A DNA stretch of 64,000 nt. Source: Halobellus inordinatus. GTDB lineage: Archaea; Halobacteriota; Halobacteria; Halobacteriales; Haloferacaceae. Below are positions 19,939 through 52,258 of the stretch, in pieces. Position 1 is the first letter of the stretch. Each line of letters begins with the position of its first letter. The DNA is taken from assembly GCF_024464655.1 (NCBI RefSeq), contig NZ_JANHAV010000002.1, forward strand, positions 62,001 through 126,000, read 5' to 3'. Made by a program: the position numbers and the translations under genes. The notes under the pieces were generated by a model. The model was not told the origin of the DNA and made no database searches. It saw nothing but the letters and a program-made list of their open reading frames with translations.

Positions 19939-20024
19939 CTATAGTAGCGTTTGCAACTGATTGCTCATCAGATCGCACGCAGTCGTGCGATCGAGTGAGT
20001 AAAGACTTGCAAACGCTACTATAG
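19939..20024. repeat. 86-bp nested palindromic element, family A copy 1
   Basis: The ends are a perfect 18-bp inverted repeat: ctatagtagcgtttgcaa at the left and its complement at the right. In the centre is a second perfect 9-bp stem, gatcgcacg-CAGT-cgtgcgatc. The connecting arms are only partly complementary. A diverged copy in opposite orientation lies at 26395-26477. The element sits between the promoters of two divergent genes (RNA ligase and its partner). It has no coding capacity. It could be a non-autonomous mobile element (MITE-like) or a structured regulatory or nucleoid site. Confidence 0.85.
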
Positions 20025-26394: not shown

Positions 26395-26477
26395 CTATAG
26401 TAGCACTTGCAAGTCTTCACGCATCGGATCGTCCGCTGTCGTGCGATCGGATGAGCAATCAGCAAATGCTACTATAG
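26395..26477. repeat. 83-bp nested palindromic element, family A copy 2
   Basis: Inverted relative to copy 1. Terminal arms ctatagtagcacttgc and gcaaatgctactatag pair with one mismatch; the inner hairpin around GATCGTCCG/CGTGCGATC has two mismatches. Read on the opposite strand it aligns with 19939-20024 along its full length, with one 3-nt gap and scattered substitutions. It fills nearly the whole 89-bp space between two convergent genes, starting 2 nt after the sulfatase-fold stop and ending 4 nt before the panE stop. In this position it could also work as a bidirectional terminator. Confidence 0.85.
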
Positions 26478-48690: not shown

Positions 48691-49598
48691 CGATCCGGAT
48701 GCTCGAAACCGACCACTTCCTCGACATCGACGACCTCTCGACGGACGAACTGCACACCGTTCTCGACCGTGCCGCGGCCATCAAAGCCGGCGAGGACGAC
48801 ACCCAACTGCCCGACCAGACGCTGGGGATGCTCTTCGAGAAGCCGAGCACCAGAACCCGGATCTCCTTCGAGACCGGGATGACCCAGCTCGGCGGCCACG
48901 CCATCTTCCTCGGGCCCGACGACATCCAGCTCGGTCACGGCGAACCGCTCTCGGACACCTCGCGCGTCCTCTCGCGGTACGTCGACGCTGTGATGGCGCG
49001 GCTGTTCGACCACGAAGACCTGCTCGAAATCGCCGAGTACTCCGACGTGCCGATCGTCAACGGCCTCACCGACGACGCCCACCCCTGCCAGACGCTCGCC
49101 GATCTGCTGACGATCGAGGAGGCCTTCGACGGCTTCGACGGCGTGCAGGCGGCGTGGGTCGGCGACGGCAACAACGTCGGCCAGTCGTTCGTGATCGGGG
49201 CCGCGATGGTCGGCCTGGATCTGACGGTCGCGACGCCGGAGAACTACGGGATGGACGACGCGGTGCTCGAACAGGCCGAAGAGATCGGTCACGCGCCGAC
49301 GGTCGTCGACGACCCGAAAGACGCCGTCGACGACGCCGACGTCGTTTACACCGACGTCTGGATCTCGATGGGCCAAGAGGACCAGCGCCACGAGAAACTG
49401 GCTGCCTTCGACGGCTATCAGGTGAACGAGTCGCTGCTCGCAGACTCCGACGCGCAGGTGATGCACTGTCTCCCCGCCCACCGCGGCGAGGAGATCACTG
49501 ACGAGGTCTTAGAGTCCGATCGGGCTCTCGTCTGGGACCAGGCGGAGAACCGCCTGCACGCCCAGAAGGGCCTGCTCGTCGAACTGCTGGACGCGTAG
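48687..49598 (+). CDS. argF: Ornithine carbamoyltransferase
   Basis: Forms citrulline from ornithine and carbamoyl phosphate. The carbamoyl-phosphate loop is FEKPSTRTRISFE; other signatures are HPCQTLADLLTIEE, WVGDGNNVGQSFV, VVYTDVWISMGQE and the ornithine loop MHCLPAHRGEEIT. Starting at the GTG 48687 continues the 4-nt overlap pattern of the operon (303 residues); the ATG at 48699 would remove four residues. It is the last gene of the argW-argF run. A palindromic element and the convergent ppk gene follow. Confidence 0.96.
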   Translation: MTIRMLETDHFLDIDDLSTDELHTVLDRAAAIKAGEDDTQLPDQTLGMLFEKPSTRTRISFETGMTQLGGHAIFLGPDDIQLGHGEPLSDTSRVLSRYVDAVMARLFDHEDLLEIAEYSDVPIVNGLTDDAHPCQTLADLLTIEEAFDGFDGVQAAWVGDGNNVGQSFVIGAAMVGLDLTVATPENYGMDDAVLEQAEEIGHAPTVVDDPKDAVDDADVVYTDVWISMGQEDQRHEKLAAFDGYQVNESLLADSDAQVMHCLPAHRGEEITDEVLESDRALVWDQAENRLHAQKGLLVELLDA

Positions 49599-49642
49599 TT
49601 CGGCGCGTTCGAGGCTCGGTGCGTTCTTCTGTGCTGCTTCTC

Positions 49643-49722
49643 ATAGGGATTATCGTACGTCTCCATAGATTTCTCGCCGGACGGTACGGCGAGAATCTCC
49701 GAACAGTGACGATAATCCCTAT
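49643..49722. repeat. 80-bp nested palindromic element, family B
   Basis: Terminal perfect 14-bp inverted repeat: atagggattatcgt at 49643-49656 and its complement at 49709-49722. Inner perfect 9-bp stem ttctcgccg / cggcgagaa (49671-49679 and 49687-49695) with loop gacggta. No sequence similarity to family A but the same outer-arm, spacer, inner-hairpin plan and ATAG-type ends. It lies between the convergent argF and ppk stops. Confidence 0.85.
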
Positions 49723-49756
49723 CAGTTCCCCGTCTGTGAAGCGCTCGCGAAACCGA

Positions 49757-52258
49757 TCAGAGTTCGCTCTCGTCGGTGTAGACCTCGTCGAGGTCGACGT
49801 TGGGTTCGCGACGCGGTTCGCGCTCGGGGTTGCGCGACTCTCCAGGGTCTCGCGCCCGTGCGCGCTCCATCAGGATCTCCTGTGTGTCGCGGACGGGTTC
49901 CTCACCGGGGTGCTGCTGTACGTAACTGCCATCCGATTGCATCACCCACCGCCGGCGGTTGTCCGAGAGCATCACCGAGAGAATCTCGTCGAGTTCGGCC
50001 TGTAGATCCGGATCTTCGACCGGCGCAACCGCTTCGATGCGGCGATCTAAGTTCCGCGTCATCCAGTCGGCCGAGCCGACGAAGTACGCGGGATCGCCGG
50101 CGTTCCCGAACTTGAAGATCCGCGAGTGTTCGAGGAACCGACCGACGATGCTGTGGACCTTGATCGACTCGGTCGCCCCGTCGACGCCCGGGCGGAGCCG
50201 ACAGATGTCGCGGACGAACAGGTCGATGTCGACGCCCGCGTCGCCGGCCTCGTACAGTTTTTCGACGATGCCGGGGTCTTCCAGCGCGTTCATCTTCGCG
50301 ATGATCCGGCCGCCGTCGCCCGCCTCGGCGTGTTCGATCTCGCGGTCGATGAGTTCACAGATGCGCGATCGAAGCGTCTCGGGGGCGACCAGCAGCTTTC
50401 GGTACTCCTGCTGTCGGGAGTGGCCAGTGAAGGAGTTGAACAGGCGGACGATGTCCTGTCCGACGTCCGGATCGGCCGTGAACAGGCCGAGATCGACGTA
50501 TCCCTTCGCCGTCCCCGAGTGATAGTTCCCGGTCGCGACGTGGGAGTAGATGCGGACGTCGTCGCTCTCCTGTCTGACCGCCAGTGCGACCTTACTGTGG
50601 GTCTTCAGGTCGATCGAGCCGTAGGCGACGTGGATCCCCTCCTCCTCGAGGCGCTTGACCCAGCGGAGGTTGTTCTCCTCGTCGAAGCGGGCTTTCAGTT
50701 CGACCATCACGGCGACCTGCTTGCCGTTCTTCGCGGCGTCGATGAGGCTCCGGAGCACGCGCGAGTCGGGTGCGGTGCGGTAGATCGCGGCTTTGATCGC
50801 CAGCGTGTCCGAGTCGTGTGCGGCCGCGTCGAGGAACGCCTGGACGGTGTCGTCGAAGGTGTGATAGGGGTGATGCACGAGCGCGGGCTTCTCGCGGATC
50901 GCCTCGAACAGGTCGTCGGGGCGGTCCGGGTCCAATTTGGCGAACCGCGGGTGCTGCTGTGGCGTCCACGGCCGCAGCTTGAGCGAGGGTGCGTCGAGAT
51001 CGACCAGACCGTCGAAGTCGCGCAACGCCAGCGGTGAGGAGACCTCGAACACCTCGTCCTCGGTGATATTGAGGTGTCTGACCAACAGCTCTCGGATGCG
51101 GTCGGCCGCACCGTCTGCGATCTCCAGGCGGACGATCGTCGCGAACCGCCGCTGTCGGAGGACGTCTTCGATCTGTTCGATCAGCCCCTCCGCGACGTCC
51201 TCGTTGCGCCGCACCTCCGCGTTCCGCGTCACGCGGAACGTCGTGTAGTGTGTGACCTCGACGTTCGGAAACAGGAGGTCGAGGTTCGCCGCGATGACCT
51301 CCTCGATCGGGATGTAGCGGCCACGCGGGTCGCCCTCGATCTCGTCGACGGGCGTCCCGACGTCGAAAAGGGGGATCAGCCGGGGCAGATTCGCGGGCAC
51401 CTTGATCCGGGAGAAGCGCTCTTCGCCCTCGTCGTCGCGGGTGAGCACCGCGAGCGACAGCGACAGATTGGAGATGAACGGGAACGGATGCGCCGGATCG
51501 AACGTCAGCGGCGTCAGCGTCGGCAGGACCGAGGACTCGAAGTACGAGCGGAGTCGATCTGACTCCTCGTCGGTCAACCCCGCCGCTCCAATGATTTCGA
51601 TGCCTGCGTCCTCGAGTTCGGGCTGAACTGCGTGCTGATAACACCGCGCCTGCGTCTCGACCAGGTCCGACGCCATTTCGAGAGACTCCCGCCACTGCTC
51701 TTTGGGCGAGCGGCCGTCGACCGTGGACGTGGTGACGCCGGCGTCGATCTGCTGTTTCAGCCCGCCGATCCGCTTCATAAAGAACTCGTCGAGGTTCCGC
51801 GTCAGAATCGAGAGGAATCGGAGTCGGTACAGCGGTGGCTGGCGCCCGTCTAACGCCTCGTAGAGCACCCGCCACTGGAAACTCAGCTCCGAGAGCTCCC
51901 GGTTGAGATACCAACTCTCGTCGTCGAAGGAGCCGGTCGGCTCCTCGTCGGCCAGCGGCGGCGTTCGTGCCGGCGCGTCGGTCGCCCACTCGGTCGGACC
52001 GAGCGTGACCGGATCGGGGATGTCCGACGCCGACGACGCCGCCTCGTCGTCGGTCGCGGTCGTCGTTGTGGCGTCCTCAGTCGCCGCTGTATCCCCGGTC
52101 CCTGCTGCGTCGTCCTCGATCCCTGAATCGATCCCGTCGTTCGCTTCGACGTCGCGAGCGGGGTCGGACTCGCTGTCGACGTCCGCGGCCGGGCTGGTTT
52201 CGTCTGCGCTTTTCGCCTTCGGATCGCCGTCTTCGGTGGAGTTGTGACTATCTGACAT
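49757..52258 (-). CDS. ppk: Polyphosphate kinase 1
   Basis: Reversibly polymerises the gamma-phosphate of ATP into polyphosphate. 833 residues from the ATG at 52258. The first ~110 residues are acidic, low-complexity and absent from bacterial PPK1. The core starts SWYLNRELSELSFQWRVLYEA. It has RFLSILTRNLDEFFMKRIGGLKQQ, VHHPYHTFD, VMVELKARFDEENNLRWVKRLEEEG, the catalytic-histidine regions DLKTHSKVALAV and VGRFLEHSRIFKFGNAG, and DWMTRNLDRRIE. The C-terminal tail is Arg/Glu-rich. Its start overlaps the stop of the phosphatase gene by 11 nt, so both belong to one operon. Confidence 0.96.
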   Translation of the reverse strand: MSDSHNSTEDGDPKAKSADETSPAADVDSESDPARDVEANDGIDSGIEDDAAGTGDTAATEDATTTTATDDEAASSASDIPDPVTLGPTEWATDAPARTPPLADEEPTGSFDDESWYLNRELSELSFQWRVLYEALDGRQPPLYRLRFLSILTRNLDEFFMKRIGGLKQQIDAGVTTSTVDGRSPKEQWRESLEMASDLVETQARCYQHAVQPELEDAGIEIIGAAGLTDEESDRLRSYFESSVLPTLTPLTFDPAHPFPFISNLSLSLAVLTRDDEGEERFSRIKVPANLPRLIPLFDVGTPVDEIEGDPRGRYIPIEEVIAANLDLLFPNVEVTHYTTFRVTRNAEVRRNEDVAEGLIEQIEDVLRQRRFATIVRLEIADGAADRIRELLVRHLNITEDEVFEVSSPLALRDFDGLVDLDAPSLKLRPWTPQQHPRFAKLDPDRPDDLFEAIREKPALVHHPYHTFDDTVQAFLDAAAHDSDTLAIKAAIYRTAPDSRVLRSLIDAAKNGKQVAVMVELKARFDEENNLRWVKRLEEEGIHVAYGSIDLKTHSKVALAVRQESDDVRIYSHVATGNYHSGTAKGYVDLGLFTADPDVGQDIVRLFNSFTGHSRQQEYRKLLVAPETLRSRICELIDREIEHAEAGDGGRIIAKMNALEDPGIVEKLYEAGDAGVDIDLFVRDICRLRPGVDGATESIKVHSIVGRFLEHSRIFKFGNAGDPAYFVGSADWMTRNLDRRIEAVAPVEDPDLQAELDEILSVMLSDNRRRWVMQSDGSYVQQHPGEEPVRDTQEILMERARARDPGESRNPEREPRREPNVDLDEVYTDESEL

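Follow-up and report, generated by a model that had tools for sequence, protein, structure and literature searches.

A palindrome between argF and ppk in Halobellus inordinatus as a very probable copy of a 78-bp non-autonomous, TNA-duplicating mobile element

The palindrome and its locus

The window is the whole stretch of Halobellus inordinatus DNA that was analyzed, 64 kb in length. A palindrome lies at 49643-49722 in the gap between two convergent genes, where the forward-strand gene, named argF in a preliminary description of the sequence, ends at 49598 and the reverse-strand gene, which matches annotated ppk1, ends at 49757. That description had reported the palindrome in this gap, together with 14-bp perfect arms and an inner 9-bp perfect hairpin, and all are present. 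The arms, ATAGGGATTATCGT, occupy 49643-49656 and 49709-49722. The inner hairpin (49671..49695, forward strand) is composed of a 9-bp stem, with TTCTCGCCG at 49671-49679 and CGGCGAGAA at 49687-49695, and a 7-base loop; it is seen in the sequence and in the fold, and its stem pairs are mostly invariant among 74 distinct copies. As RNA, the palindrome folds at -39.1 kcal/mol (z -6.6), and 0 of 200 shuffles folded as well. Perfect inverted pairs of at least 14 bp within 250 bp number three in the 64 kb, namely the palindrome, a family A element at 19939, and one more.

The total of 80 bp given earlier is the span as read, but only 78 bp of it, TAGGG...CCCTA (49644..49721, forward strand), make up the element itself. 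Its ends are set by the TNA found on both sides of 65 of 81 copies and by unoccupied copies of family A. The flanks are duplicated and the consensus around insertions is CTNAG, which places the A and T at the two extremes of the span within the duplicated target. At this locus, the target C-TCA-G gives a left duplication TCA at 49641..49643 and a right duplication TCA at 49722..49724, both read from the sequence and following the pattern of the same 65 copies. Once the target A/T is removed, the termini are 13-bp perfect repeats. The left one, TAGGGATTATCGT, is at 49644..49656 on the forward strand, and this end is also found in other genera; the right one, located by the inverted-pair search, is at 49709..49721 on the reverse strand.

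Inside the terminal repeats, the two ends are unequal. The subterminal motif CATAG occupies positions 21-25 from the left end (49664..49668, forward strand), and CGGAG occupies positions 21-25 from the right end (49697..49701, reverse strand). These motifs are assigned by their pairing in the copies of the family: CATAG at one end and CGGAG at the other is observed in 65 of 81 copies in this genome, with one mismatch allowed. The pair is absent at all 21 other offsets tested.

Copies and boundaries in the genome

The element belongs to a dispersed family. Searched by BLAST with the 80-mer, the genome (23 contigs, 3.41 Mb in total) has 40 scored matches, each 78-80 bp long and 93-100% identical, and a pattern of both arms gave 76 matches. 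A core pattern, counted once per copy, gave 87 matches (36 forward, 51 reverse), with 0 for the reversed control. At least two more copies (L170 and L339) lie outside this set. The possibility raised earlier that the element is unique is thus false, and its proposal of a mobilized repeat agrees with the 87 core matches. The main counts (flanks, gene context, stop codons, and unequal ends) cover all 87; the flanking consensus, divergence, background CTNAG, family A nesting, and subterminal offsets were taken from 82 or 76 copies. Mean divergence from the consensus is 6.4 percent (76 copies compared).

Recognizable ends are present in 81 of the 87 copies. The 3-bp flanks are identical in 68 of these 81 and differ in 13, and 65 of the 68 identical pairs are TNA (31 TCA, 26 TGA, 4 TTA, and 4 TAA). 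The consensus around the insertions (76 copies) is the palindrome CTNAG; farther out, A and T are more weakly preferred.

Nesting and movement

Movement is recorded where the two families have inserted into each other. Five copies of the 78-bp family lie inside family A elements, in both orientations, at a single site whose sequence is CTGATT or a variant. Removal of the element and one duplication restores the unoccupied family A sequence in four of the five, and in the fifth (L027) yields CTGAG, a variant of the site. The reverse is also observed: two family A copies lie within 78-bp elements (L038, 15474-15553; L065, 1267-1346) with a TA duplication, one TA copy of one insertion carrying a base change. 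Because the nesting is reciprocal and unoccupied family A copies exist, both families have moved. The 78-bp family therefore shows a target duplication (65/81 TNA) as well as an unoccupied site, in family A with and without the insertion.

Comparison with a relative (G012) is consistent with this history. By their flanks, 0 of 13 copies read there share a position with a copy in the H. inordinatus genome. No clean orthologous empty site was obtained from G012: its argF-ppk gap is without the element but otherwise different, and around one of the copies read there the intergenic sequence does not align.

Family A, a MITE-like repeat, is the comparison family. In the window, it is represented by an 80-bp element at 19942..20021 and a second element of 77 bp at 26398..26474, both on the forward strand and flanked by a TA duplication. 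The preliminary description proposed that the two families share an architecture without sequence identity. The ~80-bp fold-back design is common to both, as are unequal arms and mutual nesting, and identity is indeed lacking beyond the termini TAG...CTA; the target duplications, however, differ. The "ATAG-type ends" said to be shared hold for TAG...CTA, but are in part target sequence. Across the genus, family A also has the broader distribution of the two, being present in 12 of 17 genomes.

A single type of protein for both families, also suggested earlier, does not agree with duplications of TA in 30 of 38 family A copies versus TNA in 65 of 81 copies here. A single shared transposase is therefore unlikely, though the two families may derive from related groups within a single superfamily. 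The eukaryotic Tourist and Stowaway MITEs of plants, which make 3-bp TWA-type and 2-bp TA duplications, respectively, show the same pairing of 3 bp and 2 bp as the 78-bp family and family A.

Named plasmids also carry family A, including some from Halobellus, Haloferax mediterranei, and Halorubrum, and a single Haloferax plasmid has it at 29 places. None of the annotated family A matches listed has an annotation under it. On a Halobellus plasmid, a gene for an IS5 transposase close to a family A copy was considered and has no ends like those of either family.

Size and nesting recall the SMRs of Haloquadratum walsbyi. In the available part of their description, HqIRS41 is 80 bp and SMR-A about 110 bp, the terminal repeats are unrelated to known transposons, and movement is attributed to an enigmatic process (PMC3119063). 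Like SMR-A and SMR-B (80-110 bp), the 78-bp family has terminal repeats and tens of copies, nests in other repeats, and has no known partner, the mobilizer of the SMRs being unknown. A repeat of this kind, with ends unrelated to known transposons and spread by such a process, is nevertheless quite unlikely here. The SMRs are described, in the text available, as making no target duplication (PMC3119063), whereas 65 of 81 copies of the 78-bp family carry a 3-bp TNA duplication; it is on this description that the two are set apart.

Gene context and stop codons

Genes were predicted with a home-made gene caller. All 87 copies are outside predicted genes, with 27 in convergent gaps, 48 in tandem gaps, 11 in divergent gaps, and one in a gap of undetermined type. 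The duplication is the exact stop codon of the neighboring gene in 39 of 87 copies (33 TGA, 6 TAA), though not in the copy in the window. The duplication copies pre-existing bases, and the gene thus had the same stop before the insertion. Since TGA and TAA are TNA triplets, insertion at a stop rebuilds it and leaves the protein unchanged.

A bidirectional terminator or RNA-processing hairpin of the argF/ppk gap, perhaps spread by its usefulness, would draw on the strong fold (-39.1 kcal/mol), the convergent position of the window's copy, and the many copies that begin at a stop codon. Against it, 48 of 87 copies are in tandem gaps and 11 in divergent ones, and the locus-specific terminator offered earlier as an alternative is at odds with so wide a range of gene contexts. 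An intrinsic terminator lies downstream of genes and is followed by a T run, and no T run follows the hairpin at the window's copy. Changes in the arms are mostly uncompensated; for example, of 74 distinct copies, 85 percent form pair 6-73 and 76 percent form pair 7-72. The window has no Rfam match at gathering thresholds, and a terminator leaves the direct TNA duplications unexplained. This reading is very improbable.

The distribution of insertions was set against that of the empty CTNAG sites within these stretches, masked for 82 of the 87 copies. Insertions at exact CTNAG fall on stops (22) and in other intergenic sequence (20), with 0 in coding sequence; the unoccupied background holds 35 stop, 99 intergenic, and 287 coding sites. 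Insertions are enriched at stops relative to the rest of the intergenic CTNAG (Fisher p 0.002) and are absent from coding CTNAG (Fisher p 8e-20). Selection can account for the absence from genes and for part of the excess at stop codons. True targeting of stop codons by the element is possible. The ability of the 3 duplicated bases to serve as a stop codon would be a simple explanation for the tolerance of many insertions by genomes with short intergenic regions.

Relatives in other haloarchaea

Within the genus, the 80-mer matched 6 of 17 genomes by BLAST, with many matches only in the H. inordinatus genome, G012, and G009. A pattern of the ends, TNATAGGGANTATCGT, combined with TNA is much wider in its range. 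It is found in 40 of 391 genomes of the class, in 23 of 86 genera, with 2 of 391 for the reversed control, and in 19 of 170 genomes of the family Haloferacaceae. The earlier suggestion of a general class of element is borne out by these shared ends across haloarchaea.

At the class sites, 81 paired elements were read, and 79 were analyzed after two were left out: L196, which is a copy from the H. inordinatus genome, and L198, whose 743-bp "partner" was taken as a chance pairing. The 79 outside elements span 64-135 bp, with 65 at 98-100 bp, 7 at 77-78 bp, and 7 of other lengths. Their 3-bp flanks are identical in 63 of 79. None lies within a predicted gene, and 24 of the 79 are on a TGA stop. 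The CATAG/CGGAG pair is present in 44 of 70 outside elements of 90-110 bp, with one mismatch allowed. The 7 short outside elements are without this asymmetry (CATAG at both ends in 4, at one end in 2, and at neither in 1), and unequal ends are therefore not universal.

Three of the 99-100-bp relatives, used as queries, matched five plasmid records, of which four are annotated. In two of these four (Natronosalvus and Natronorubrum) the annotated gene stops precisely where the element lies; in the other two it does not. No match was obtained with the 80-mer by BLAST against phage and plasmid sequences, or with the paired end pattern in IMG/VR. Matches of the end pattern in IMG/VR to 11 AT-rich contigs have no credible second end and were taken as chance.

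Several variants were seen among the sites read. A 135-bp relative (L231, 1465-1599) contains a partial internal duplication of its own sequence. In G184, 45-bp relatives (L163, and L158 near 1501) keep both ends without the inner hairpin and are possibly internal deletions. In G150, an unpaired TNATAGGGAGTATCGT stretch occurs twice (L184 and L214) with identical following sequence, and is perhaps another repeat. Single-ended sites, 10 without a partner and two more (one of them a site already read), were taken as chance or decayed.

The transposase

The preliminary description called for a transposase whose terminal repeats match the arms, and none was found among the transposase loci read in the H. 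inordinatus genome and in 12 element-bearing genomes, or at the class and family sites read. Ends like TAGGGATTATCGT were absent at 10 PF01609 matches in the H. inordinatus genome and at 30 PF01609 transposase loci from 12 element-bearing genomes. None of these transposon loci has terminal repeats matching those of the 78-bp family. No long paired, autonomous element was present at the sites read from pattern searches of 391 class and 170 family genomes. These searches used exact end patterns and one Pfam family (PF01609), and a partner sharing few terminal bases would be missed.

Five proteins of the H. inordinatus genome were scanned. One, an ISH3, passes the family cut-off; the others matched IS1182, IS982, IS5, IS701, IS4, or ISH3 models below the cut-off. 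A multi-copy IS5-type IS with GAGGGTGTCATAGAA ends was ruled out as the partner by its duplications of about 8 bp. This IS is roughly 1,068 bp, and nine copies were read in G065 (loci among L087, L279, L280, L301, and L305-L313). The H. inordinatus copy of it at L087 carries an in-frame stop.

The enzyme may instead be a resident, transposase-like host protein that has no autonomous copy and prefers stop codons. That no autonomous partner lies at the sites read would fit such a protein, as would unequal ends conserved in several genera and the excess of insertions at stops. The searches behind the first point are limited to exact patterns and one transposase family, and purifying selection can yield the stop-codon excess, and on balance a resident enzyme is unlikely. 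A wider form of the idea would have miniature transposons with unequal ends throughout the haloarchaea, lacking any autonomous member, moved by a resident and possibly domesticated IS5-like enzyme, and preferring stops because the TNA duplication rebuilds them. It is speculative and rather unlikely.

The palindrome is best read as a copy of a non-autonomous, TNA-duplicating family of mobile MITEs, with a probability of about 0.93. A transposase would bind the 13-bp TAGGGATTATCGT ends, and perhaps also the unequal CATAG and CGGAG motifs. It would excise the element and insert it at a palindromic CTNAG site opened by cuts staggered by 3 bases, and gap repair would then produce the TNA duplication. 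Rebuilding of the stop, together with selection against insertions in genes, would leave copies only in intergenic sequence and often exactly on stops. The duplication pattern makes an IS1031-type transposase of the IS5 family the best guess for the enzyme.

Comparison with known systems

The 78-bp family is short, has terminal inverted repeats, contains no transposase gene, and is present in many dispersed copies. It is a MITE in the broad sense, with a putative parentage in the IS1031 group. No description of the family was found in the literature searched, insofar as its texts were available; the search covered few subscription journals and not ISfinder. Among the matches listed for the literal end sequences, there was only a 10-base family A string, in unrelated work.

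Within the IS5 family, insertions of the IS1031 group favor TNA targets and leave a direct repeat of 3 bp, according to the available part of PMC12016507, and the 78-bp family makes the same 3-bp TNA duplication. The members described there are complete ISs, and the one quoted has GAACCTGTCTAGTATCT ends, unlike those of the 78-bp family (PMC12016507). As no autonomous element was found, the putative IS5/IS1031 assignment comes from the target duplication alone.

Prokaryotic MITEs are known from other haloarchaea, including ISH2, which is mobilized by ISH8, and the Halobacterium MITEHsal elements (available parts of PMC10969869 and PMC10264941). Like the 78-bp family, these are short and non-coding, have terminal inverted repeats, duplicate their target, and reach many copies, and they are moved in trans, as the 78-bp family would be (PMC10969869, PMC10264941). 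As far as described in the text available, MITEHsal2 differs in its length of about 410 bp and duplications of 6-8 bp, versus TNA and no partner found for the 78-bp family, and the ISH2-ISH8 cassette differs in its 10-bp duplication, versus 3-bp TNA (PMC10264941).

The kind of element is already known, as a MITE, and the family itself is new. What had been an oddity of one gap has become a mobile family whose exact ends, target rule, and host range are defined, and for which the enzyme can be sought.
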